From a virus, in IMG/VR virus record IMGVR_UViG_3300030090_003056, positions 1 to 20,837 of that record: DNA of 20,837 nucleotides. One strand, written 5' to 3'. A program made the translations under genes and the position numbers. Positions 5,369-17,197 of the stretch are shown piece after piece. The stretch's first letter is position 1, and each line of letters begins with the position of its first letter. Below the pieces are notes generated by a model. The model had not been told where the DNA came from, made no database searches, and worked only from the letters and a program-made list of their open reading frames with translations.

Positions 5369-6061
5369 TTATCTCCAATTATCTATGACCCATTTCTCCT
5401 CTGATTCGTGAGGTTTAGGGTATCCATGAAAGACTGCTATCTTTCCATTAGGATTTTGTTCAAATGTCCATAAATTTTTACCAAATCTAGGGTTTTCTCT
5501 ATCGTGCCACTTATAAGAAAAAGACCACTCATCAGGAAAAGGTTTAACATTTTCGTGACTATATTTCTTATTTTGTCTTAACAACTCTGTAATAGCATTC
5601 TGGTCACCTTGAAGTGTATACCAATACTGTCTTTTCTTTACAAATTCATCCCATATTATAGGACGCATTGTTTCACTGTGCCACTTCATAATACTTGAGT
5701 TATACCAAATCTTTCTACCATTAAAGTCTGTTGTTATGCTAAAGTCTTTTTCACTGCTAAATTTAGCAAAACAATCTATATTTCTTAATATAACAACGTC
5801 TAAATCTAGATACAAATTTACACCTGATAAACCATTATCTGGGTGAAATAATTGCATTTTGTTCCACCAACCTTGCATATCTGCAAACGGAAACTGTTTT
5901 ACTATTATATCACCTTCTAATACTTTGTCTAGTCTTAAATGGTCTGTAAAACAATAAAATTTATATGGTACACTTAAATGTCTTTGAACCATATTATATA
6001 AATTCTGTACATATTTTTTGTCATACTTATCGCCGTATAACACACAACAAAAATTAATCAT
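5369..6061 (-). CDS. Glycosyltransferase, GT-A fold
   Basis: A 230-aa cytoplasmic glycosyltransferase. The N-terminus INFCCVLYGDKYDKKYVQNL is the nucleotide-sugar binding start seen in a group of phage and bacterial enzymes. The DXD metal motif is in LYLDLDVVIL (residues 86-88), GDQNAITELL follows at about 153-162, and the C-terminal IAVFHGYPKPHE contains the His found near the metal site of such enzymes. The donor and acceptor cannot be told. It starts by ATGA overlap with the small gene upstream and has no strong ribosome site of its own, so translation is probably coupled. It is the last enzyme of the glycan cluster. Its product may modify host lipopolysaccharide or phage surface (inference). 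Confidence 0.85.
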   Translation of the reverse strand: MINFCCVLYGDKYDKKYVQNLYNMVQRHLSVPYKFYCFTDHLRLDKVLEGDIIVKQFPFADMQGWWNKMQLFHPDNGLSGVNLYLDLDVVILRNIDCFAKFSSEKDFSITTDFNGRKIWYNSSIMKWHSETMRPIIWDEFVKKRQYWYTLQGDQNAITELLRQNKKYSHENVKPFPDEWSFSYKWHDRENPRFGKNLWTFEQNPNGKIAVFHGYPKPHESEEKWVIDNWR

Positions 6062-6276
6062 CTTAAATCACTTTTCACTCTTTGTAATTGTTCAATTATT
6101 TGATTTAATTTAAATTTACTAGTGTCCATCTGTTCTCTGCTTTCAAAATAAACAGAATCACCTAACATATATGCTTTACCTTGATACTTTTGTATAAATG
6201 ATTGTAAATCACTTATCATATTTTTAGCAACACTTAATTGATAATCTATGGGATTATATTTTTCTTTAGCACTCAT
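6058..6276 (-). CDS. Unknown 72-aa helical protein within the glycan cluster
   Basis: Starts MSAKEKYNPIDYQLSVAKNM behind a strong AAGGAG. It is largely helical, with an amphipathic C-terminal helix (FKLNQIIEQLQRVKSDLR). It is joined to both neighbouring glycosyltransferase genes by 4-nt ATGA overlaps, so it is made together with them. No family recognised. A partner or regulator of the adjacent enzymes is possible, but equally it may be an unrelated small phage gene. Confidence 0.6.
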   Translation of the reverse strand: MSAKEKYNPIDYQLSVAKNMISDLQSFIQKYQGKAYMLGDSVYFESREQMDTSKFKLNQIIEQLQRVKSDLR

Positions 6277-7091
6277 TCAGTCACTCCTTGATTTTTTAAT
6301 AATTTATATGCCGTACCGTCTTCGATTTCATTCATTGTAAACTGTTGTTCTGTGATAAACTTCAACCACTCATTTACAGTTTTTTTACCTGGTCTAAAAG
6401 GTTTTTCAATATACTTAGCATCTCTTGATGCAACTGCCCACGCAACGTTTCTACCGTCTGTTATCACAGGTACTCTATTTAATATTGCGTCTACAGATGC
6501 TATGCTCATATTTGTTACTAAACAATGACAATCTTTCAATTGTTCTCTTATATTAGTTCCCCACCATTCATTACCTGGTCTAGGTTTATTTCTCACTATT
6601 ATTTCTCTGTCAGTATGTTTTGCTAACTCCATCTTAACTTCAGTCACCCAATCTTCTTGCGTCATATTATTTAACTGTCTAGTAACTGTTGGTGATGATG
6701 GACAAACTAAAACGTGTTTTGTATCACCAGTATACCATCCTTTGAACTCTGCGTCAAGTCCCTCTGCTTGTAATCTTTTTAATCTAGCACCATCACCTAC
6801 TTTACCTCTGATTGTGTGTAGACCACCCTTGACTATTCTAAAATAGGTGGTGTCAGGTTTAGTTATTTCAGGAACAGGATATCTAGTTATCTCATCAGTA
6901 ATATATCCTATGTCAACATAATACCATTCTTCTTTTTTCTCTTCACATTCTGCAATCTCTCTAATATTTTTACCTGCTAATCCCCAAAAGAAATGTATCT
7001 TTCTATCGTTATCTGTCCAACCCTTTTCTATCAATGGAAATATCTTATGAGATAGACATTTATCCCAAGATAACTTATGTGTTATAATCAT
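6273..7091 (-). CDS. GT-B-like glycan synthesis protein, paralog 1
   Basis: The start is set at 7091 (272 aa) because AGAGG lies 6 nt upstream, whereas the longer ORF start at 7109 has none. The N-terminal half contains WYYVDIGYI followed by TYFRIVKGGLH. The C-terminal half has a Rossmann-like strand HVLVCPSSPT, then DREIIVRNKPRP and the signature LVTNMSIASVDAILNRVPVI at about 191-210. That last block resembles the GT-B/capsule-synthesis pattern in which a Ser/Thr-rich loop and an acidic residue bind the sugar nucleotide. Two more genes in this window (13531-14451 and 14441-15421) share these blocks. The precise transferase activity is unknown. It overlaps the FkbM gene by 17 nt. Confidence 0.7.
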   Translation of the reverse strand: MIITHKLSWDKCLSHKIFPLIEKGWTDNDRKIHFFWGLAGKNIREIAECEEKKEEWYYVDIGYITDEITRYPVPEITKPDTTYFRIVKGGLHTIRGKVGDGARLKRLQAEGLDAEFKGWYTGDTKHVLVCPSSPTVTRQLNNMTQEDWVTEVKMELAKHTDREIIVRNKPRPGNEWWGTNIREQLKDCHCLVTNMSIASVDAILNRVPVITDGRNVAWAVASRDAKYIEKPFRPGKKTVNEWLKFITEQQFTMNEIEDGTAYKLLKNQGVTE

Positions 7092-7716
7092 ATAATACCT
7101 CTGCACCAATTCTAAAAACTTCTTTATAATTTACTTTACTTAATAACTTTGTATAATCATCTGCTGAATGTCGCATTCTTTTTGATTTCATTTCTAGATG
7201 AACAAAAGGTCTGCATCTTTGTATTGTTTCTTTTGCACCTTGTACAATATTATATTCATAACCCTCTGCATCTACTTTAATATAATCAACTTGTTTTAAG
7301 TTAAAACTATCTAAAGTTCTAATCTCTGTATTACCTTTTCTAGTAGGGTGAACGTTTGTGTTACCTGAATTATCATTCTCTATATTCAAATGTCCTGTTG
7401 TATTTTTGTGACCTAATGCAAAAGGATAAACTGAATAATTATCAAACCCACCCATATTTAAAACATAACATTCTCTGACTGCCTGATTAGGTTCAAATGC
7501 CCATATATATTTTGTATTTGCTCTGTGCATCATAGGTCGTGACCACAACCCCACATGACCACCTACGTCAACAATATATTCTATTTCTCTTTTACCTTCC
7601 ATAAACTGAAAGATTGCATCTCTTTGTTTTGCTTGATACTCACCGTTAAGTATCCACCTCTCAAAGTGTGTATCACTCGAAGGGAAAAGATAATTGCCTA
7701 TTTTCTTGTTCATCAT
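7075..7716 (-). CDS. FkbM-family SAM methyltransferase
   Basis: A class I methyltransferase of 213 aa. Motif I is VDVGGHVGLW (about residues 49-58), binding S-adenosylmethionine. FEPN (74-77) carries the acidic residue expected to bind the ribose. DYIKVDAEGYEYNIVQGA (144-161) is the diagnostic FkbM block. Family members O-methylate sugars or polyketides, and in glycan clusters they usually cap or decorate sugars. The longest ORF begins at 7728, but a GAGAG-type ribosome site fits the ATG at 7716 or 7713 better. It overlaps the 90-aa ORF by 44 nt and the GT-B-like gene by 17 nt. The sugar target is not known. Confidence 0.85.
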   Translation of the reverse strand: MMNKKIGNYLFPSSDTHFERWILNGEYQAKQRDAIFQFMEGKREIEYIVDVGGHVGLWSRPMMHRANTKYIWAFEPNQAVRECYVLNMGGFDNYSVYPFALGHKNTTGHLNIENDNSGNTNVHPTRKGNTEIRTLDSFNLKQVDYIKVDAEGYEYNIVQGAKETIQRCRPFVHLEMKSKRMRHSADDYTKLLSKVNYKEVFRIGAEVLYDYNT

Positions 7717-7945
7717 TTTCACTCTCATTCAAAAGTTGTCCACTTTTATTTTCATTAACTCTCTCATCTATCCAAGGTGCATCAGGAGAGTAAGTGGGTA
7801 TCATTTTACCTGTACCAAAATCTTCAGGTTTTTGCTCTTTGTAAATTTTAACTGACTCTCCTGTGTAATCACCAAAATCTCTTTCTCTTATTTCACCTGT
7901 ATCAGGATTTCTTTCATATATTTTTATATTTTTTTTTGTATTCAT
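7673..7945 (-). CDS. Unknown 90-aa protein ending QLSFPFE
   Basis: A highly charged, probably largely disordered protein: MNTKKNIKIYERNPDTGEIR, then DYTGESVKIYKEQKPEDFGT, a Pro-rich centre and an Asn/Glu-rich tail ending in RQLSFPFE. No domain recognised. It overlaps both neighbours (32 and 44 nt). The final hydrophobic tail after a disordered region resembles a short docking peptide, for instance the sliding-clamp binding tails of T4 late factors, but this is a weak visual resemblance. Long overlaps on both sides lower confidence slightly, though the protein-like N-terminus supports it. Confidence 0.6.
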   Translation of the reverse strand: MNTKKNIKIYERNPDTGEIRERDFGDYTGESVKIYKEQKPEDFGTGKMIPTYSPDAPWIDERVNENKSGQLLNESENDEQENRQLSFPFE

Positions 7946-8732
7946 AGTTACTCCTTTCTTTTATGTATGATGTGAAAAAATATGCTTTTCTTTTACCTTT
8001 AAAATCATAGAAGAAAGTATTATCGTCAAATCCTCTTCTATGGTGTGGGTATATATCAAAACTGCCACACTCATCACCACCATATTCAATTAGTTTTATT
8101 TTACAACCTCTAACTATGTATGAACCTAATTTGTAACTATACTTTTTAGGTGGGTCACGAACTGGTAGTAAATTCAATTCTTCTCTTAAAATATTGTCAT
8201 ATGTTCTTTGGTCGCCATACCAATCCCAATGTGGGTCTTTATTTTTTTGTATAAATCTCTCATAACGATATTCAAAAAATCTTTTGACATTATCTGTTAC
8301 TTTTTTTACAACTATCATAGCATTGTTAACACGTTTACCTTTTCTTATAGGTATCTTAATATCAAAGTCTTGATTTAAAAACATCTTATCTAAATTTCTA
8401 TTGATGAGATGGTCAGTACCACACATAATTATATTCTCATTATATCCATTGTCATCACAAATAAATCTAGTTTCATTGTAAACTTTAGATTGTATAATAG
8501 TTTTTTCGTCAGTGTCTTGTCTATAATAATGACCTTCATAACCTAATGGTTTTGTGTGTCTGTCTGTAGACAGTATTAATTTACCATCAGGATTGTATCT
8601 GTAAAATGATTCATTTAAACAATTTAAAAATTTATGATAATCATATCTCTTGTTTTTAACAAAATCAATTATCTCTGGTGCCTCTTTTATTTTAAATGAT
8701 GCGTTTTTATAAAACGGAACTAGATAAACCAT
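7914..8732 (-). CDS. Putative divergent glycosyltransferase
   Basis: The ORF can begin at 8765, but GGAG lies 8 nt upstream of the ATG at 8732, giving 272 aa starting MVYLVPFYKN. Features fit a GT-A fold loosely. A strand-rich start (KLILSTDRHT) is followed by NIIMCGTDHLINRNLDKMFL, the place where GT-A enzymes have a DXD and a 'D-L-d-x-F' follow-up, here with a single Asp. WYGDQRTYDNIL is the usual GDQ helix, and FFYDFKGKRKAYF resembles the C-terminal H-F-K-G-x-R-K motif. The DXD is not intact, so activity or metal dependence is uncertain. Context between the DegT aminotransferase (26-nt overlap) and FkbM supports a sugar role. Confidence 0.6.
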   Translation of the reverse strand: MVYLVPFYKNASFKIKEAPEIIDFVKNKRYDYHKFLNCLNESFYRYNPDGKLILSTDRHTKPLGYEGHYYRQDTDEKTIIQSKVYNETRFICDDNGYNENIIMCGTDHLINRNLDKMFLNQDFDIKIPIRKGKRVNNAMIVVKKVTDNVKRFFEYRYERFIQKNKDPHWDWYGDQRTYDNILREELNLLPVRDPPKKYSYKLGSYIVRGCKIKLIEYGGDECGSFDIYPHHRRGFDDNTFFYDFKGKRKAYFFTSYIKERSNYEYKKKYKNI

Positions 8733-9807
8733 TACCATTACTCCAATGTTTTTGCAAAATATCAATCACTTCTTCTTTATTTAGACCTGGATATATAGGC
8801 ACACTAACTTGTAATTTAGAAATTTTATCTGTTACAGGTAAATCAAAATCTGTAAATTTTTCGTTCTTACTGCTATCATACATATTACCTCTAAAATGAA
8901 ATGCAGGATTTTGGTGTACAGGTTTATCATAGTGTTTTTTTAATTGCATCTCATCATTACATCTTCTAATTAAATTTTCTCTATCTCTGTGCAGTATTGG
9001 ATATATATGATAACTATGTTCAACACCTTTATCAACGTGGCAATAATTTAAATGCTCATCATAATATTTCGCAATCTCTTTTTTTACTTTCAACACTTCA
9101 GGATAATATTTTAATTTTAGACTTAAAAATCTAGCATTAATGTTTGCCATTCTAAAATTAAAACCCACATCATTCTCTTTCCAACTTCTTTGCTCTTTTA
9201 GTTCTTTTGCTAAACCCTCATCATTAGTTATGATACAACCAGCATCACCAAAAGCACCAATACCTTTTCCTGGATAAAAACTAAACGTACCTGCTTTACC
9301 AAAAGTACCAACGTGTTGACCATTAATTCTTGTGCCGTGTGCTTGTGAACAGTCCTCTATGATATTTGTGTTAATTGATTTTTTACTAATTATACTTGGC
9401 ATATCACAAGCATTACCATACATATGAACTGGTAATATTACTTTTGTGTTATAGTCACTCACATCTAGTAAATCAGGATTCATACAATACGTCTTTTCAT
9501 TTATGTCTACAAATTCGTGTGTAGCACCTAATTGTTTTATGCTTGTAACTGTAGCAGTAAATGTATGTGATACTGTTTTGACTTTATCACCTGGTCGAAC
9601 ATCACAGGTAAATAGAGCAAGTATTAATGCTGAGGTGCCACTGTTTACACCCACACAATATTTTGCACCTGTAAATTCTGCAAACTCTTCTTCAAATTTA
9701 TCTGTGCCAAATACAAAGTTACTTGTATCTAATAACTCTTTTACTTCACTCATAAACTCTTCTTTGAGAGGTTTATGAATTTCATTCATATCATAATATG
9801 GTATCAT
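8707..9807 (-). CDS. DegT/DnrJ/EryC1 (ArnB-type) PLP sugar aminotransferase
   Basis: A 366-aa PLP-dependent enzyme that transfers an amino group from glutamate to a keto-sugar nucleotide. Normal family length. It has NSGTSALILAL (about 55-65, phosphate binding), HTFTATVTS with the family's strand-helix pattern, IIEDCSQAHG (149-158, Asp binding the pyridine nitrogen) and SFYPGKGIGAFGDAG with the Schiff-base lysine at 181. The C-terminal small domain is present and intact. It begins by ATGA overlap with the Gfo/Idh/MocA gene, and an acyltransferase lies two genes upstream. In WbpB/WbpE/WbpD-type pathways these three make a 3-acetamido sugar. The alternative is a dTDP-3-amino sugar. Confidence 0.93.
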   Translation of the reverse strand: MIPYYDMNEIHKPLKEEFMSEVKELLDTSNFVFGTDKFEEEFAEFTGAKYCVGVNSGTSALILALFTCDVRPGDKVKTVSHTFTATVTSIKQLGATHEFVDINEKTYCMNPDLLDVSDYNTKVILPVHMYGNACDMPSIISKKSINTNIIEDCSQAHGTRINGQHVGTFGKAGTFSFYPGKGIGAFGDAGCIITNDEGLAKELKEQRSWKENDVGFNFRMANINARFLSLKLKYYPEVLKVKKEIAKYYDEHLNYCHVDKGVEHSYHIYPILHRDRENLIRRCNDEMQLKKHYDKPVHQNPAFHFRGNMYDSSKNEKFTDFDLPVTDKISKLQVSVPIYPGLNKEEVIDILQKHWSNGNGLSSSVL

Positions 9808-10748
9808 TCAATGTCTATCCATTTCATCAAATCTTTAGCAAAGTTTAAATCAGACATCATAGGTTTACATTCGTTATTAATACCTTCAAGAAAGTTTCTC
9901 TTTGCGTTTAATAATGCCTCTGTAGTATCTAATTTTGGACTAATCATATCACCTAATTGATTGATATTATAGTCTTCACCTATATCACCTGTATCATAAA
10001 CTTTAATTTTGTTTACATCAATATCATCATATATAACAGATTTTTTTGTGCCTGTCAAGATTATCTCTCTTTTTTTAACTGGACTTACCCAATTACAATT
10101 TATCGTAGCAGTAAATCTTTTCTTTTCTATACCACCTATCTCAAATTCAAAACATAATATTGCTTGATTATGCATTTCATTAATATGACTATGTTTTGTT
10201 ATACTCTTTCTTGTTAAACTAGCAAGAGGATATAAATGTTTTATTATTGCTAAATCGTGTATTGCTAAGTCTTTTACTACATCAACATCTTTTTGAAACT
10301 TACCTAAACTAATTCTATGACTATCATAATATAAAGGGTCACCAATATCAACTCTCGACATCTCACGCACCGCAGGGTGAAATAAAAAAGTATGGTCAAC
10401 AAAAACTCTTAGTTTACTATTTTGTTCGAACAAATATCTTTCTAATTCTAAAGTTTCTTCATATGATTGACATATAGGTTTTTCTATCCAGACGTGTCTA
10501 TTATAGTATATTGATAACTTTGCTAAATCTAAATGACTTTCTGGTGGTGTTGCTATTAATACTGCTTTTATGTCTTTATTATACTCTAAAACATTTGCTA
10601 AATTATTTTCATAATTTACACTACCTCCATAATCATATTTTGCTTTACTCAAATTAGCATCATTTTTATCAACGATAAACTTTAATTCATCTCTAAAAAC
10701 TCTTGCTAGATTTTTACCCCAATAACCATACCCCACCAATGCTATCAT
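9804..10748 (-). CDS. Gfo/Idh/MocA-family sugar nucleotide dehydrogenase
   Basis: A 314-aa NAD(P)-dependent oxidoreductase. The N-terminal Rossmann fold starts IALVGYGYWGKNLARVF (GYGYWG at 6-11), AVLIATPPESH (62-72) lies at the cofactor edge and WIEKPI (88-92) has the conserved Lys of the family. The region VVKDLAIHDLAIIKHL supplies the Asp/His pair usual in the active site. The C-terminal half is the beta-sheet substrate domain. Such enzymes oxidise C3 of UDP-GlcNAc uronate (WbpB/WlbA) before transamination by a DegT enzyme. Here the DegT gene follows directly with ATGA overlap, so this reaction order is the simplest reading. AAGGA lies 7 nt upstream of the ATG. It starts one base after the HMA gene. 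Confidence 0.88.
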   Translation of the reverse strand: MIALVGYGYWGKNLARVFRDELKFIVDKNDANLSKAKYDYGGSVNYENNLANVLEYNKDIKAVLIATPPESHLDLAKLSIYYNRHVWIEKPICQSYEETLELERYLFEQNSKLRVFVDHTFLFHPAVREMSRVDIGDPLYYDSHRISLGKFQKDVDVVKDLAIHDLAIIKHLYPLASLTRKSITKHSHINEMHNQAILCFEFEIGGIEKKRFTATINCNWVSPVKKREIILTGTKKSVIYDDIDVNKIKVYDTGDIGEDYNINQLGDMISPKLDTTEALLNAKRNFLEGINNECKPMMSDLNFAKDLMKWIDIE

Positions 10749-10749
10749 T

Positions 10750-11052
10750 TTATTTCCTTGTTATATTAATTACATTATATCCAGCATCTTCAAATAATTT
10801 TCTTATTCTAATGTCTGAGATACCATCTTCATCTTTTTCAAATACATCTGCCATTTTTATATGAACATTACCTCTATCTAAATTTACATATACAACTGCT
10901 ACGCCAGGTTGTTTCATAAAAACTTTTTCTATTGATTGGGCACAAAAATCACATACTAAACCCTCAACCTCTATATCAATAATTTTTGACTGTAAAGCAT
11001 TTACAATTAGCATTGCACATATAAACATTACTAAGTAATCTAATATTTTCAT
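10750..11052 (-). CDS. Membrane-anchored heavy-metal-associated (HMA) domain protein
   Basis: A 100-aa protein with an N-terminal hydrophobic segment (DYLVMFICAMLIVNAL, about 5-20) acting as signal or anchor, followed by an HMA fold: IIDIEVEGLVCDFCAQSIEK, then a helix, PGVAVVYVNLDRGNVHIKM, and a final helix-strand (IRKLFEDAGYNVINI). The metal site is CDFC at residues 34-37. This is the beta-alpha-beta-beta-alpha-beta pattern of MerP, CopZ and the N-domains of P-type ATPases. It binds soft metals such as Cu(I) or Hg(II) in known members, here probably in the periplasm. It has the strongest ribosome site in the window (AAGGAGG). It sits within sugar genes and starts by ATGA overlap with the acyltransferase, so it is co-expressed with enzymes of apparently unrelated function. 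Confidence 0.85.
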   Translation of the reverse strand: MKILDYLVMFICAMLIVNALQSKIIDIEVEGLVCDFCAQSIEKVFMKQPGVAVVYVNLDRGNVHIKMADVFEKDEDGISDIRIRKLFEDAGYNVINITRK

Positions 11053-11501
11053 TTTATCCTCCTTGCTGGATTACCTGCATATATTCCTGGTTCATTTATA
11101 TCTTTTGTAACAACAGAACCAGCACCTATTGTTACATCATCACATATCTTAACAGGTAGTAATGTAACGTTTGAACCAATTCTACATCTTTGACCTATAT
11201 ATGTGGGTAAATAATCTTTACTTAATTTACCATCAGCAAATTTATCGTTTGTAAACATCACACCGTGTGCTATAAAAGTGTCGTCACCTATATAAGTTTT
11301 CTCACATATAAAACTATGTGATTGTATTCTCACATTACAACCTATGATAACATCTTTTTGTATCTCACAAAATGGACCAATAAAAACATTATCACCTATT
11401 ATCGCACCGTACATATTTATGGGTTCTATATAGATTAAATTTTCACCAACAATATTATCTACGACTTTACTTATTTTTGAATTCATTTGTTTCATTACCA
11501 T
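11049..11501 (-). CDS. Left-handed beta-helix (hexapeptide) sugar N-acetyltransferase, WbpD-like
   Basis: A 150-aa acyltransferase of the hexapeptide-repeat class. Repeats run through most of the sequence (IGDNVFIGPFCEI, VIIGCNVRIQSHSFI, YIGDDTFIAHGVMF, YIGQRCRIGSNVTL, VTIGAGSVV), and it ends with YAGNPARRIK, typical of sugar acyltransferases. The catalytic His is probably in AHGVMFTND. WbpD/WlbB-like enzymes of this size acetylate the 3-amino group made by a DegT aminotransferase, and that enzyme and a matching dehydrogenase are close downstream. Met codons at 11501, 11495 and 11486 are all possible starts and none has a strong ribosome site. The largest ORF overlaps the upstream methyltransferase by 35 nt. 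Confidence 0.88.
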   Translation of the reverse strand: MVMKQMNSKISKVVDNIVGENLIYIEPINMYGAIIGDNVFIGPFCEIQKDVIIGCNVRIQSHSFICEKTYIGDDTFIAHGVMFTNDKFADGKLSKDYLPTYIGQRCRIGSNVTLLPVKICDDVTIGAGSVVTKDINEPGIYAGNPARRIK

Positions 11502-12312
11502 CTAACACTGTTGTCTTTTTTGTTTTTTCGTATTTTCTTTGTAACATTTCAAATAATGTTTTATCTTTTCTATCTCCTGCATACTTCATTTGTAAAGGGT
11601 ATTGAAATCTCATATACTCTTGTTTTTGTGCAACACATATTATAATCACTTCTTCAGGTTTACTAGGATATGATTTTCTATTAAGTGGGTCAGGTATAAA
11701 GAAATCTAAGTTATCTTCAACTTCTCTTCTAGTTCCTTTAACACCTATCAAGTCTGTAACCTGCCAACCATTTTGATGAAAAATATCTGTGTACGCAGTA
11801 GGACAGAAGTTCCAGAAACCGTGATTAATCTTTGATGCAGGTGCCGCCATAAATATAGTGCCACCTAACTTTGTCATCTCCATAATATTTTTGAATGCTT
11901 GACCTACGTTGAAACAATGTTCTAAAGTACCTACGTCAAATATTAAATCATATTTCTCTTTATACTCATAAGGTAGTGGTTCATTTAAATCCATTATTTT
12001 CTCAACACCTAAATGTGAGTATATATCAAACACATCTATATCCATATTAAACTGATTAAAGAAACTTTCTGTTGTGTATAGATGTTTAGTGCCATCTGCC
12101 TCTAATTTTGCTCTTAACTTTTTGTGTAAACTTGTGTCAACAAATCTTTCTCTGACATCTAATTTCTCAAGATTAATACCTACATTTTTTAAATCAGTTT
12201 CTGATACCATCAAGTCAGGATAACCTAAAGTTGCTACTTTAATTCTTTCTTCTTTTTTTATTCTTCTAAAAGTTCTCACTGCTGATTTTAAAAAATACTT
12301 ATCTATTGCCAT
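11467..12312 (-). CDS. SAM-dependent methyltransferase (class I, type-11-like)
   Basis: A 281-aa protein. A helical N-terminal part is followed by a Rossmann-like core: KIMDLNEPLP (about 105-114, acidic end of strand 2), YDLIFDVGTLEHCFNVGQAF (121-140, the 'D-x-V-x-x-x-x-x-x-E-H' motif of methyltransferases acting on small molecules) and LGGTIFMAAP (149-158). A glycine-rich motif I is not obvious, since the N-terminal region (IKVATLGYPDLM) is divergent. The C-terminal extension is rich in charged residues. AGGTGA lies 6 nt upstream of the ATG. The start overlaps the stop of the metallo-beta-lactamase-fold gene (TAATG), so the two are probably translated together. Sugar methylation is the likely role given neighbours. 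Confidence 0.75.
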   Translation of the reverse strand: MAIDKYFLKSAVRTFRRIKKEERIKVATLGYPDLMVSETDLKNVGINLEKLDVRERFVDTSLHKKLRAKLEADGTKHLYTTESFFNQFNMDIDVFDIYSHLGVEKIMDLNEPLPYEYKEKYDLIFDVGTLEHCFNVGQAFKNIMEMTKLGGTIFMAAPASKINHGFWNFCPTAYTDIFHQNGWQVTDLIGVKGTRREVEDNLDFFIPDPLNRKSYPSKPEEVIIICVAQKQEYMRFQYPLQMKYAGDRKDKTLFEMLQRKYEKTKKTTVLDGNETNEFKNK

Positions 12313-13538
12313 TATAAGTCACCTATCAATCTTTGATAAAAATTATCTTGATTGACTATTTCATTTAGCATTAAATTTTTACCTAGATATTTACCTATGT
12401 TATTATAGTACCATAAATTTGTTTGATTGAAAAAGTTATTTACTCTGTCATAATTAATCTGACACCTACCACTAATTAGAACAGTACCTCTACCCCATTT
12501 ATTTTTAATTAAGAAATATAAACACTCACTAGACATTGAAATATCATTTTCTAGTTGTGAAACAATTTCAAAAGTTATATTCTTTATATCATACTTTATA
12601 ACGTTACCCCAATCAGGCACACTTATATACGTTTCTTCAGCATCAAATAATGACATATCATTTTTATTGTGTATCTCATCACACATTTCTAAAAATGATG
12701 ATTTTACTTCTTGTAAAGGTTGCACGTTATTTTTATGTTTAGGATTTATCATCTTTTTCATTGTCGCCCAATATTGAGCATTTGTGTCTGACATTCTCTC
12801 TTCATAAGTCATATCAGGATGTGGAAAGAAACATTTAATATTTTTACTTTCAGCAAATCTTTTGACATCATGTATGTTTGGTGTGTATTGATTCATATAA
12901 AAATTTTCATGGTGAGAGAAATAAACGAATGATGCACAAGGTATCCAAACTTCAGGTTTCAATACTTTAAATTGAGTTGATAATCTATCATATATAATAC
13001 TCTGTGCTTTCTTTGGCATATTCTCATCACCTTTATTACCTGCCCAATTTGCATAAGAAAATTGAGAGAACAAGTAATCAACTTTTTTAAGTTGCAATTT
13101 TTGTAAATCTTTTTCATCAGTAACTTGATAGTCATTTAAATTAACATAAGTTTTAGTTTTTGTTTTATACACAAAAAAACTATCAAAACCACTTGACTCA
13201 ACTCTTATGTCACCATAATTTAATTTATAGTATTGAGAACTTTCACATTCTAATGTTTTAAATCCTAATTTTTTTACGAACTCTAAAACTTTACCGTCCA
13301 TTGTTTTGTGAAAAATCACAGTTTTTGTTTCTGGATTAGAAATAGATTTTAAAGTGGGTATGTGAAAATGGTCAGGATGTTCGTGAGATATGAAAATATA
13401 ATCAAACCTTATTCTGTTTATGTCATAATCTATTTCTTTTAATAAGTTCCACCCATTTAGAAATATTTCACCTTTGAACCAAGGGTCAACTAAAATATCG
13501 TCAATTAAAAATGTTGAATGATTATAAAATTTAAACAT
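12312..13538 (-). CDS. Metallo-beta-lactamase-fold hydrolase or oxygenase
   Basis: A 408-aa protein with an N-terminal metallo-beta-lactamase domain: MFKFYNHSTFLIDDILVDPW forms the first beta hairpins and FISHEHPDHFHI (49-60) is the HxHxDH dinuclear metal motif with both His pairs and Asp. Further metal ligands (HHENFYM and later His) are plausible. A region around YVNLNDYQV and DYLFSQFSYANWAG resembles the CMP-N-acetylneuraminate hydroxylase-like/UlaG-like branch of the fold, and the C-terminal 150 residues form an extra domain of unknown type. In glycan clusters this branch is thought to act on sugar nucleotides or lipid carriers. The specific reaction cannot be told. The start overlaps the GT-B-like gene by 8 nt. 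Confidence 0.8.
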   Translation of the reverse strand: MFKFYNHSTFLIDDILVDPWFKGEIFLNGWNLLKEIDYDINRIRFDYIFISHEHPDHFHIPTLKSISNPETKTVIFHKTMDGKVLEFVKKLGFKTLECESSQYYKLNYGDIRVESSGFDSFFVYKTKTKTYVNLNDYQVTDEKDLQKLQLKKVDYLFSQFSYANWAGNKGDENMPKKAQSIIYDRLSTQFKVLKPEVWIPCASFVYFSHHENFYMNQYTPNIHDVKRFAESKNIKCFFPHPDMTYEERMSDTNAQYWATMKKMINPKHKNNVQPLQEVKSSFLEMCDEIHNKNDMSLFDAEETYISVPDWGNVIKYDIKNITFEIVSQLENDISMSSECLYFLIKNKWGRGTVLISGRCQINYDRVNNFFNQTNLWYYNNIGKYLGKNLMLNEIVNQDNFYQRLIGDL

Positions 13539-14451
13539 TATATTCGTCTGCTATCTTTTCTTTGTATGGTTTTACGTCACCTTGTAAACATTTTATTATT
13601 CTGTGAGCATAATCAGTTTTCATCTCAGTGCCTGTAAACTGACACCACTTTAAATAATCTATGTGATTAAATATCTTTTCTGCACCTGCCCAATATGGTT
13701 TTTCTATATTTTCAAGATTTGTTTCACTTAAATATGCTCCTGCGTTAGGTCCTAAAGTTATAGCAGGCACACCCACTGTTATTGACTCTAATGATGCTAT
13801 GCTATTGTATGTTACAATGCAATGATATTTACCCTCTCTTAGTTGGTCTTGTAAAGAATAATCAATTCTCTCTGACCTTGATAATTTTGCTCTAATTTCT
13901 ATTTTTCTATTTGTTAAATTTTTAATTTTTTCAATCAATTGCTCTGTATATTTTTGTGCTACACCCCCAAAATGATTAAAAACTTTTTGACTTGGTGGTA
14001 CTATCAATATGCTTTTATTGTCGTGATACTCTCTTTCTTTTATATCCCACCTTACAATATCTCTTCGCATAGTCCTTACATTGTAAATTTCTAATGATGA
14101 AAACTCTGTTGATAATCTATCTTCAATTTCTTCTTTTGATAAATGATTTAGAGTTTGTAAGTTATTGTATGCTATTCTATGCCATTGCTTTGTATTTTGA
14201 TTACCAAAATAACCTGTGTCTATATAAAGATAGTCTATGTTGTTTTCTATACAATCCCATATCATAGGTGATTTACCTAAACCACGAAACACACAAGGTG
14301 TCTTATCATCAGTATTAAAGTCATCATCATTTATATAATTACCTTCACAACCCTTAGAAAAACCATGAATATATGGGTCTATTGCATTTTTACCTTTTCT
14401 AACTCTTTCGTCTGCTTTTTCTTTTGACCAATCAACACATCTATATGACAT
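13531..14451 (-). CDS. GT-B-like glycan synthesis protein, paralog 2
   Basis: The start is placed at 14451 (306 aa, MSYRCVDWSKEKADERVRKG) because GGAGGAGAG lies about 8 nt upstream. The longer ORF start at 14478 lacks a site. It shares blocks with the genes at 6273-7091 and 14441-15421: YLYIDTGYFG with WHRIAYNNLQ in the first half, SILIVPPSQKVF, NRKIEIRAKLSRSE, and CIVTYNSIASLESITVGVPA at 211-230. The last block has the Ser-rich loop and Glu typical of GT-B enzymes in capsule or teichoic acid-like synthesis. Its reaction is not known. It overlaps the gene upstream by 11 nt. Being adjacent to paralog 3 suggests tandem duplication followed by divergence. Confidence 0.7.
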   Translation of the reverse strand: MSYRCVDWSKEKADERVRKGKNAIDPYIHGFSKGCEGNYINDDDFNTDDKTPCVFRGLGKSPMIWDCIENNIDYLYIDTGYFGNQNTKQWHRIAYNNLQTLNHLSKEEIEDRLSTEFSSLEIYNVRTMRRDIVRWDIKEREYHDNKSILIVPPSQKVFNHFGGVAQKYTEQLIEKIKNLTNRKIEIRAKLSRSERIDYSLQDQLREGKYHCIVTYNSIASLESITVGVPAITLGPNAGAYLSETNLENIEKPYWAGAEKIFNHIDYLKWCQFTGTEMKTDYAHRIIKCLQGDVKPYKEKIADEYNV

Positions 14452-15421
14452 CTTTAACTCTCCTCCAATATTCACCACTCTTTAAATCTGGTAATCTCCA
14501 ATGTGAGTATCCTAGATTATTTAAAAACTGTTGTCTGTCTATACTTATATTAGGATTTTCAATGTTTGATAAACGACCTGCTCTCATAGGTAAAAAGTAG
14601 CATCTCTTATTAGTGATGAATAATGGTTTACCTTCAGTGATTGCAGGACCACCAGCAGTTGATGTAAATATTACAACTGCGTATGACTTTCTAATTGCTT
14701 TAATTAAGTTAGGAAATTCATCAAGAGGTGAATGTAATGATACATTTTTAGCAGTTTCACAATATTCTTTTAATCTTTTATAATCAGTTTTGTGTTCCAT
14801 ATAAGACCGTGATGAATGTTGTCTTATGATAATGGGTCTATCAGTGTGTTTTCTTAACTCTTCTACAGTTTCTATTGACCATTGGGCGGCGTTAACACCT
14901 AAACCAGAGTAACCACTAGAACCTCTGTTACAACAGATGTAAATATAATCACCACGCAAATCATAATCTTTTAATTCTATACCTTTAATTTTTGCCATCT
15001 CGTTCCACCTATCTGATGGACAGTTTTCATTGAAGTATTTTGCCTTACCAGGATAAACATCACCATAAGCAACTCTGACATAAGAATTTTTTATATCGTA
15101 TTCATAATTGTGATTTAAATGTGAGTCAACACCATTTAATACATCATTATCAAACATCCATATCTTACCACTGTCTTTATATTTGTTCCAAACATTTACT
15201 CTTAATTGTAATCTATCTTTTAATTTTTCTTTAATTGATGCAACTCTTTGATAATTGAATATCAAGGCGTGTGATGTATTCTTTACCTCGAAACCATCAG
15301 CACCTTTATGATGTATGACGTGAATACCTTCATCTTCTAATGGTTTAGCAAACGCCTCCATCAGTTCCATTTTAAAACCATACTTCACTGTTGTTGCATA
15401 ATATACACACAAATCTCTCAT
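14441..15421 (-). CDS. GT-B-like glycan synthesis protein, paralog 3
   Basis: An ORF open from a GTG at 15427, but GGAG lies 5 nt upstream of the ATG at 15421, giving 326 aa. The N-terminal part (CVYYATTVKYGFKMELMEAF) and SHALIFNYQR fit the first GT-B lobe. IWMFDNDVLN with YVRVAYGDVY corresponds to the aromatic-D-x-GY/R-I block of the paralogs. The second lobe has YIYICCNRGSSGYSG (159-173), DRPIIIRQHSS (194-204) and SYAVVIFTSTAGGPAITEGK (246-265). The last is the equivalent of the SIAS-x-E/D block, here STAGGPAITEG with Glu retained. Enzymatic specificity is unknown. The gene begins 2 nt after the GT8-like gene's stop. Confidence 0.7.
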   Translation of the reverse strand: MRDLCVYYATTVKYGFKMELMEAFAKPLEDEGIHVIHHKGADGFEVKNTSHALIFNYQRVASIKEKLKDRLQLRVNVWNKYKDSGKIWMFDNDVLNGVDSHLNHNYEYDIKNSYVRVAYGDVYPGKAKYFNENCPSDRWNEMAKIKGIELKDYDLRGDYIYICCNRGSSGYSGLGVNAAQWSIETVEELRKHTDRPIIIRQHSSRSYMEHKTDYKRLKEYCETAKNVSLHSPLDEFPNLIKAIRKSYAVVIFTSTAGGPAITEGKPLFITNKRCYFLPMRAGRLSNIENPNISIDRQQFLNNLGYSHWRLPDLKSGEYWRRVKDVI

Positions 15422-15423
15422 TA

Positions 15424-16098
15424 TCACTCCATATCTATTTGTGTTGTTTCACCATAATATTTAAACCAGTCTGCTGAATAATCACCATCTTCGTATTCAT
15501 TAAACCAAGGACCACCCTCTGTAAAATGAATATTCTTGACATTATCTTTTTTTTCATATTCACCTGCTAACCAGTTCCACTCTAGTGGTAAATCACCTAT
15601 GAGATTATCACTCTCTAACCATTTGAATTGATGCAACTCTAAACCACTTGCTCTGTTTACATAATTAGGTGTTAGTGCAGTACACTTCTTACAATTCATT
15701 AACATAAAACTTGACCAGTTCTTTTTAGGATAAACTGTTTGTTTCTGATTTAGAAATTTTATTGTACTCTTTGGTGTGTAATCGTGTTTACAAACTTGCA
15801 CTGCATATCTATCATCTCTTAATCTCCACAGTTCATTAATGTCTGCTTTCATTAACATATCACAATCCATAAACAATGCCCAACCTTGATAGTTCATTAA
15901 GTGTGGTGTGATGAATCTACTAAATGAAAATTCTGTAGATGATAAATTATTTCGTTCTCTAACAAAATCATCTTTTATATTATCAAGATAGATAGGTGTA
16001 ATAGATACAGGTTGTGTGCTATTCTTTAATATACTATATGATAACACACTAAATGATACTTTTTCTTTTGTATCATAACCTATAAAAACATTAATCAT
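15424..16098 (-). CDS. GT8-like glycosyltransferase
   Basis: A 224-aa GT-A fold enzyme. It starts with INVFIGYDTKEKVSFSVLSY, typical of GT8-related phage glycosyltransferases that bind a nucleotide sugar. The metal-binding motif is DCD in WALFMDCDMLMKADI (78-80). Downstream WNWLAGEY and KNIHFTEGGPWF have the His/Gly pattern near the second metal contact (the 'H-x-x-x-G-G-P-W' end is common in this group). NWSSFMLMNC precedes the acceptor region. It begins by ATGA overlap with the cupin gene and has no clear ribosome site of its own. It is probably one of the enzymes that add sugars to lipopolysaccharide or virion glycans. Confidence 0.85.
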   Translation of the reverse strand: MINVFIGYDTKEKVSFSVLSYSILKNSTQPVSITPIYLDNIKDDFVRERNNLSSTEFSFSRFITPHLMNYQGWALFMDCDMLMKADINELWRLRDDRYAVQVCKHDYTPKSTIKFLNQKQTVYPKKNWSSFMLMNCKKCTALTPNYVNRASGLELHQFKWLESDNLIGDLPLEWNWLAGEYEKKDNVKNIHFTEGGPWFNEYEDGDYSADWFKYYGETTQIDME

Positions 16099-16439
16099 AC
16101 TTTACTGCCGACTGTTTCTCTTTCTATATCACCGTGGTCAAACTCTGCCCAATATAATTCAAATGCAACACCATCTTCTAAACCTATGAACTGATGATAC
16201 TCGTTCGGTTTTACTTGTGTGAAATCACCAGGTCCTAATATTGTTTCATCTACTAAATCATAATCATTTTTCCAAACTCTTACAATCATCTTACCAGATT
16301 CAACAAAGAACCCATTCCATTTAAATTTGTGTTTGTGCTTAGAACACGATACGTCTTTTTTAAATTCTATTCTATGAAACTCAAGAACTCCATTTGCGTG
16401 AATGAGTTCTGTTTGTCCCCAAATTTTTCCTGCTTTCAT
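16095..16439 (-). CDS. Small single-domain cupin
   Basis: A 114-aa cupin barrel. Motif 1 is KHKHKFKWNGFFVESGKM with metal ligands His35, His37 and Glu47. Motif 2 is GDFTQVKPNEYHQF with His82. All four expected metal ligands are present. Such cupins in sugar clusters act as isomerases or epimerases of nucleotide sugars, or resemble the C-terminal domain of mannose-6-phosphate isomerase/GDP-mannose pyrophosphorylase. The length is at the small end, so a stand-alone catalytic role is unproven. It is tied by ATGA overlaps to glycosyltransferases on both sides, which points to a sugar substrate. The ribosome site is AGGAGA about 10 nt upstream. Confidence 0.82.
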   Translation of the reverse strand: MKAGKIWGQTELIHANGVLEFHRIEFKKDVSCSKHKHKFKWNGFFVESGKMIVRVWKNDYDLVDETILGPGDFTQVKPNEYHQFIGLEDGVAFELYWAEFDHGDIERETVGSKV

Positions 16440-17197
16440 TTTAACATTTCTCCTGCATCTTTTCTTGCTTTACCTTTTAGATGGTCCATATATTCTGCCA
16501 TAGGTGTATCTGGCCAAGGATTACCTACTTTTCTAATTTTAGGTGATAAATTAAATTGTGGTGTGTTATATAAAATTTTCTTTCTAACGACATCAAAAAT
16601 ATAACTGTCGTGCCATTCTTTTTCTTTTAATAAATTTAGTGATGTGTAGTATTCTTCTAATTTTTTAACAAATATTCTAGTGTCAGGATTTTTTAAATTG
16701 TAACCTACAAAACCACATTCACTATAATAAGTTGGTCTATGTATGAAAGATATCGCATATTTTCTTGGTAAAAATTTTTCTATAACTTCTTTTTCAGTTA
16801 TGTTCTTTTTGAATATAACATCAGCATCAATCCAAAACATATAATCATATGAATGTCTAGGTGCCATCATAGCATCACATTTTGCAAATACCTTATAACT
16901 AAATCTTACTGCATCTTTTTTATAATTTGTGCCATGAATAATTTTATCAGGTCTACCTTTTTCTACACTATCAACATTAAATTCACTTGCTTTCGCATGA
17001 AATTTTTCTAACTTCTCACCAACTTTACCATTATGAATATTTCTGTAATAAATGTTATCTCTAATTGCAAAATCTTCAGGTATCCACCCTTCGTGATAAA
17101 TGAATAGGTCAAATGGCCAATTATAAGATTTTAAAAATCTATGTGCGTAATATTCGTAAAGTCTTTTATTAAAACTAGTTACAATACCAATCTTCAT
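16436..17197 (-). CDS. Glycosyltransferase, GT-A fold with DAD motif
   Basis: A 253-aa enzyme. It opens with MKIGIVTSFNKRLYEYYAHR. The metal motif DAD lies in YMFWIDADVIFKK (124-126). YYSECGFVGYNL then forms the acceptor loop and KEWHDSYIFDVV carries the 'H-D-S/Q' helix typical of the fold. The C-terminus is basic. This type occurs widely in T4-like cyanophages and pelagiphages as an unspecific 'glycosyltransferase'. It overlaps the RuvC-like gene by 23 nt, so the glycan cluster is transcribed as a continuation of the nucleotide-metabolism block. The sugar donor is unknown. Confidence 0.82.
   Translation of the reverse strand: MKIGIVTSFNKRLYEYYAHRFLKSYNWPFDLFIYHEGWIPEDFAIRDNIYYRNIHNGKVGEKLEKFHAKASEFNVDSVEKGRPDKIIHGTNYKKDAVRFSYKVFAKCDAMMAPRHSYDYMFWIDADVIFKKNITEKEVIEKFLPRKYAISFIHRPTYYSECGFVGYNLKNPDTRIFVKKLEEYYTSLNLLKEKEWHDSYIFDVVRKKILYNTPQFNLSPKIRKVGNPWPDTPMAEYMDHLKGKARKDAGEMLK

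Follow-up and report, generated by a model that had tools for sequence, protein, structure and literature searches.

A putative phage-borne operon for a nucleotide-activated 3-acetamido sugar in T4-like phages of SAR11

Based on gene order, family placement and structure comparison, it was concluded that an operon of the bacterial exopolysaccharide/O-antigen type is carried by one lineage of SAR11 T4-like phages, where it rather probably makes a nucleotide-activated 3-acetamido sugar, most likely from UDP-GlcNAc, for glycan decoration. The window, i.e. the whole stretch of DNA that was analyzed, is a 20,837-base IMG/VR virus record. Of the phages with names, Pelagibacter phage Mosig EXVC030M and HTVC008M come closest to it. 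It is a pelagimyophage contig, belonging with these two relatives to the SAR11-infecting T4-like phage lineage. SAR11 and its phages rank among the commonest marine organisms.

Organization of the locus

All noteworthy predicted genes of the window were located on the minus strand, and nrdA/nrdB together with a RuvC-like gene were found at its right end. An earlier note on this DNA had described genes for a dehydrogenase, a DegT aminotransferase and a hexapeptide acyltransferase lying nearly together. All three were confirmed on the minus strand, and the adjacency held, with the correction that a fourth gene lies between the acetyltransferase and the dehydrogenase:

8707-9807, minus strand: DegT/DnrJ/EryC1 PLP aminotransferase (DegT), 366 aa (PF01041, 1e-76)
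9804-10748, minus strand: Gfo/Idh/MocA dehydrogenase (Gfo), 314 aa (PF01408, 7e-13)
10750-11052, minus strand: HMA/CopZ-like metal-binding open reading frame, 100 aa (PF00403, 8.7e-8), with VCDFC and a hydrophobic N-terminus
11049-11501, minus strand: hexapeptide (left-handed beta-helix) N-acetyltransferase, 150 aa (Pfam Hexapep, 1e-20)

The genes are transcribed in the order acetyltransferase, HMA/CopZ-like gene, dehydrogenase and aminotransferase, separated by -4, +1 and -4 bases. A methyltransferase-like gene precedes them and a conserved gene follows, again with short overlaps, so the region looks like a single transcript. The HMA/CopZ-like gene, which splits the acetyltransferase from the dehydrogenase in the window, was seen in just one other contig, L003, and the two genes directly adjoin without it in the close contigs L004, L005 and L006; it is probably an insertion outside the sugar pathway. 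The active-site residues were present in both larger enzymes. In DegT these were the PLP aspartate D152 and the PLP lysine K181 (FYPGK181G), the latter as the earlier note had stated, and in Gfo the GxGxxG motif, K90 (EKP), D160 and H164 were all intact.

The trio is flanked by glycosyltransferase genes, methyltransferases and other cluster genes, which were assigned as follows:

5369-6061, minus strand: glycosyltransferase (phrog_1962, 3e-22; 45% to Mosig_00183, annotated as a glycosyltransferase)
6273-7109, minus strand: cluster protein, paralogue of 13531-14478 (by sequence comparison)
7075-7728, minus strand: FkbM-type methyltransferase (PF05050, 4e-18)
7914-8765, minus strand: conserved protein overlapping the 3' end of DegT, with a GTDHLINRNL stretch (66-95% identity downstream of DegT in four close contigs)
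11467-12312, minus strand: putative methyltransferase (weak), upstream of the acetyltransferase (phrog_22502, 5e-4; Pfam Methyltransf_11/12, ~0.007)
12312-13538, minus strand: metallo-beta-lactamase-fold protein (PF13483, 1e-7)
13531-14478, minus strand: cluster protein, paralogue of 6273-7109 (by sequence comparison)
14441-15427, minus strand: cluster protein, distant paralogue of the 6273-7109/13531-14478 family (by sequence comparison)
15424-16098, minus strand: GT8-family glycosyltransferase (PF01501, 2e-5; 76% to Mosig_00188, annotated as a glycosyltransferase)
16095-16439, minus strand: cupin (PF07883, 1.5e-6; 94-97% identity in three other contigs)
16436-17197, minus strand: conserved cluster protein with an FWIDADVIF stretch, without a Pfam match (33% to Mosig_00189)

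The products of 7914-8765 and 16436-17197 might, at a guess, be glycosyltransferases. The former gave no family match and no PDB match by profile, and its AF2 model built from five sequences reached a pLDDT of 31. A loose-threshold Pfam search of the unassigned cluster genes returned chance-level matches only.

At the corresponding site upstream of nrdB, Mosig carries a sulfotransferase-like gene besides glycosyltransferases and methyltransferases. HTVC008M carries nucleotide-sugar dehydrogenase, NadE-like and carbamoyltransferase genes there. The site near nrdAB is a cargo site for glycan genes, the contents of which differ from phage to phage.

The window also encodes a phage-borne class I cytochrome c at 84-479 on the minus strand (CAGCH; PF00034, 1.4e-8), whose N-terminus is hydrophobic. 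Relatives with 37-87% identity were found on four further viral contigs and none in the named phage collection.

Conservation of the trio in viruses and bacteria

Four other IMG/VR contigs were found to hold Gfo (68-97% identity) and DegT (74-92%) within the same surrounding cluster. The acetyltransferase was present in three of them, and the fourth, L003, ends before the acetyltransferase position. Pairwise dN/dS values of 0.10-0.25 were obtained for all three genes among the close phage contigs, which indicates that the genes are maintained as proteins. Taken with the Gfo identities and the gene order kept across viral contigs, these values argue that the adjacency of the trio is more than chance.

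Codons 211-275 of Gfo were near-invariant among the phages, with dN of 0.01-0.06 despite high dS, a mark of exceptionally tight constraint. Recombination was rejected as the cause, since dS in this block was ~1.1-1.3 in three of four comparisons, like the remainder of the gene. One guess is that the block forms a contact surface with the aminotransferase or within an oligomer.

On plasmids of Gloeothece, Pelagibacterium and Rhizobium, polysaccharide clusters contain the genes for the acyltransferase, Gfo and DegT in the same order, an arrangement referred to here as the cassette; Aureimonas carries the Gfo-DegT pair, with acyltransferases farther away. By tblastn counts, which are lower bounds, all three genes lay within 3 kb in at least 42 of 80 bacterial relatives (species genomes), 17 of them ordered Hex-Gfo-DegT, and in at least 22 of 80 viral loci, 12 of them ordered as in the window. 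The window shares the features of the bacterial Hex-Gfo-DegT cassette: its Gfo falls within the cassette clade, the three genes are on one strand and the synteny is conserved. Among named phage records, no cassette Gfo was found except for one 24% match in an unannotated faecal phage.

In the Gallionellaceae MAG L055, one locus was observed to contain a WbpA-B-D-E set and, beside it, a further Gfo and a further hexapeptide gene of the cassette type, which suggests two distinct 3-amino sugar routes.

Family placement of the three enzymes

The best single-sequence PDB match of the phage Gfo was 7bvj, titled UDP-GlcNAc 3-dehydrogenase GnnA. GnnA also ranked first by both VIA-align and Foldseek when an AF2 model of the phage Gfo (pLDDT 94) was compared. 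VIA-align gave Z 33.9 over 285 residues with an rmsd of 2.0, the best among the PDB chains compared (WlbA, Z 30.9), in a family where all structures share the fold and lie within a few Z units of the GnnA match. In a family-profile search, the uncharacterised structure 3c1a slightly outscored GnnA. Among NCBIfam models, NF040723 (archaeal UDP-GlcNAc 3-dehydrogenase) ranked first for the phage Gfo and for each of the six cassette Gfo proteins tested. Its scores were 77 bits for the phage protein, 77-187 for phage and cassette Gfo together, 190-212 for GnnA and 84 for WbpB, for which iolG was ahead; the curated cut-off of 450 bits was reached by none of them.

In a maximum-likelihood tree of 91 sequences, the phage Gfo was placed inside the cassette family, and WbpB and GnnA formed two separate clades, divided from that family by a starred branch. 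The GnnA clade (support 100/98) stood apart from the cassette family, and the phage Gfo did not cluster with it. The WbpB and WbpE controls were taken from L055, where WbpB is WlbA-like (5e-177 to 3q2i) and WbpE matches the PDB WbpE at 1e-144; this WbpB grouped with the L030 and L035 copies in a clade of its own. The approximately unbiased (AU) test rejected the phage Gfo and WbpB as one clade (p=0.0036).

The active-site segment of the phage Gfo was DVDVVKDLAIHD, whereas the control WbpB sequences have GGAxxNQxxH there. A segment of the D-x-x-V-x-x-D-L-x-x-H-D type was common to the phage, GnnA and most cassette members for which the segment was captured; the GnnA motif found in the phage protein can be written D-V-D/N-V-x-x-D-L-x-x-H-D. 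The phage Gfo thus fits the GnnA pattern, combining the catalytic Lys with D-[VI]-x-V-x-x-D-L-x-x-H-D and the GnnA fold. On sequence grounds, it is assigned to a third family, separate from those of WbpB and GnnA.

The PDB matches of the phage DegT were 7b0d (2e-65), QdtB (1e-51) and WbpE (6e-39), and 7b0d, 5u1z and QdtB all outranked WbpE. In the DegT tree, the phage enzyme was located near QdtB-like C3 aminotransferases and away from GnnB. AU tests on a quick DegT tree rejected the grouping of the phage enzyme with WbpE (p=6e-5) and that of the phage kin with WbpE and GnnB (p=0.016). The best PDB matches of the hexapeptide protein were the 3-N-acyltransferases WxcM-like 4mzu (1.6e-19) and QdtC (3e-17), and its identity was 40-44% to the bacterial cassette members versus 26% to the control WbpD. 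The best sequence matches with a known role were therefore GnnA for Gfo, QdtB and similar enzymes for DegT, and WxcM-like/QdtC for the hexapeptide protein. The claim of the earlier note that the three enzymes form one pathway was supported by these matches, by the fitting step types and by the recurrence of the trio in bacterial polysaccharide clusters.

Proposed pathway and substrate

The chemistry of the trio, as predicted from sequence, is very likely C3 oxidation, C3 transamination and 3-N-acetylation. Gfo would oxidize the C3 hydroxyl of an NDP-hexose to the 3-keto form with NAD+. DegT would then aminate the keto group to the 3-amine by means of PLP and an amino acid donor, and the hexapeptide enzyme would N-acetylate the amine to the 3-acetamido group with acetyl-CoA. 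The product would be a nucleotide-activated 3-acetamido-3-deoxy sugar.

UDP-GlcNAc was considered the likeliest predicted substrate, at about even confidence, by fold and motif and because GnnA and the archaeal 3-dehydrogenase offer analogous cases; UDP-glucose was its main rival. UDP-GlcNAc would be used directly, as by GnnA/GnnB, leading to UDP-2,3-diacetamido-2,3-dideoxyglucose. A strict GnnA/GnnB analogy is weakened by the position of the phage DegT near QdtB-like enzymes rather than GnnB. Action on UDP-glucose, a widespread cell metabolite, with formation of UDP-3-acetamido-3-deoxyglucose (UDP-N-acetylkanosamine), would resemble rifamycin biosynthesis, where UDP-glucose was reported to undergo the first two steps through the RifL/RifK oxidoreductase/DegT pair (PMC8788734). 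Such a pathway is rather unlikely: the best fold match and the best family model of the phage Gfo are GnnA and NF040723, and among the matches of the phage DegT the AHBA-synthase structures 1b9h/1b9i came well after both QdtB and WbpE.

The earlier note had assigned the trio to the WbpB/WbpE/WbpD type acting on UDP-GlcNAc uronate, with the precursor taken from the host or the UDP-GlcNAc 6-dehydrogenase encoded elsewhere in the phage. The three enzyme classes are identical, WbpE is clearly related to the phage DegT, and HTVC008M has a UDP-glucose/GDP-mannose dehydrogenase at the corresponding site. Nevertheless, both AU tests, the different Gfo catalytic motif and the low identity to WbpD contradicted the assignment, and this pathway was judged quite improbable. 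The first enzyme was indeed absent from the window, and a wbpA-like gene, which the earlier note had proposed to look for in the rest of the genome, was sought more widely. No WbpA-type dehydrogenase (PF03721) was found in the window, in the four sister contigs or in Mosig, all contigs of the close lineage being fragments; the HTVC008M enzyme at the corresponding site is of this type. Among 19 long viral contigs with a cassette-kind Gfo, it was absent from 15, including those of 116 and 137 kb, and present in four. At the trio loci it was seen in 2 of 42 bacterial and 1 of 22 viral cases.

As cassette-family trio loci seldom contain a WbpA-type gene, no "missing first enzyme" is required, and with UDP-GlcNAc as the direct substrate a UDP-GlcNAc 6-dehydrogenase would be unnecessary. 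The WbpA-type step is probably no part of the phage pathway rather than a missing step supplied from elsewhere. A need for UDP-GlcNAc uronate was likewise unsupported, given the GnnA-type motif and the rarity of the WbpA-type gene. A sugar building block already present in every host cell would suffice as the starting material of the trio.

Possible role and significance

It was proposed that the phage glycosyltransferases of the cluster would then attach the trio sugar to a glycan, most probably a host surface polysaccharide during infection and less probably a virion protein. In SAR11 strain HTCC1062, the LPS genes are located in a hypervariable region, in which SAR11 strains differ (PMC2217521), and remodelling of the host O-chain by pelagimyophages has been put forward as a proposal (PMC7029224). 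Together with the glycan-cargo site, these points make a surface or virion glycan the likely target. A surface-glycan role of the trio product is plausible, with the chances about evenly divided. Decoration of the virion instead, on a tail or capsid glycoprotein, is a possibility of lower probability. The glycosyltransferases encoded alongside the trio and the glycan genes at the nrdAB-adjacent site of Mosig and HTVC008M would agree with it too, but no virion gene was recognized within the window, and the published opinion on pelagimyophage glycosyltransferases, a proposal as noted, is O-chain modification (PMC7029224).

Metagenome studies have already reported single wbpE, gnnA or wbp-family genes of viruses (PMC12783922, PMC13211439), and no description of an intact trio at the nrdAB-side site was found in the open-licence literature. 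The complete trio at this site thus seems undescribed, while this kind of phage cargo is not unprecedented. It may tentatively be suggested that the cassette, with its Gfo family apart from WbpB and GnnA, represents a third route to UDP-diacetamido sugars, by direct C3 oxidation of UDP-GlcNAc, which pelagimyophages carry whole and which would give host or virion glycans a sugar that the host does not make. The labels wbpB, wbpE, wbpD and gnnA on viral genes in databases may misstate the true substrate. An intact, selected sugar-precursor operon beside phage glycosyltransferases offers a concrete small-molecule product to seek and three enzymes that can be assayed together.

Comparison with known systems

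In Acidithiobacillus, for example, GnnA/GnnB use UDP-GlcNAc to form UDP-GlcNAc3N for lipid A, and the product passes to LpxA rather than to an N-acetyltransferase. The phage system resembles this pair in that a Gfo/Idh/MocA 3-dehydrogenase and a DegT enzyme are encoded together, with a shared catalytic motif and the best fold match; however, GnnA and GnnB form clades separate from the phage and cassette Gfo and DegT. The Methanococcus maripaludis proteins MMP0352/0351/0350, a UDP-GlcNAc 3-dehydrogenase, aminotransferase and acetyltransferase acting directly on UDP-GlcNAc, comprise the three matching enzyme classes; the comparison was made through the archaeal family model NF040723, the best one for the phage Gfo, which scored 77 bits and thus far under the cut-off of 450.

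The reaction types of the WbpB/WbpE/WbpD (WlbA/C/B) O-antigen pathway are equal to those proposed for the phage trio (PMC10622841). That pathway differs in acting on UDP-GlcNAcA after WbpA, in its Gfo motif and in its clades, which were set apart by the AU test. The O-chain auxiliary genes of SAR11 T4-like phages comprise glycosyltransferases as well as enzymes for sugar precursors (rfaE, UDP-Glc 6-dehydrogenase) (PMC7029224); unlike the window trio, those in the main text of that report include neither an aminotransferase nor an acetyltransferase.

In the polysaccharide clusters of Rhizobium, Pelagibacterium and Gloeothece, the acyltransferase-Gfo-DegT cassette resembles the phage trio in gene order, in motifs and in a Gfo identity of 37-38% over 94% of the length, the phage Gfo being ~30 residues shorter.
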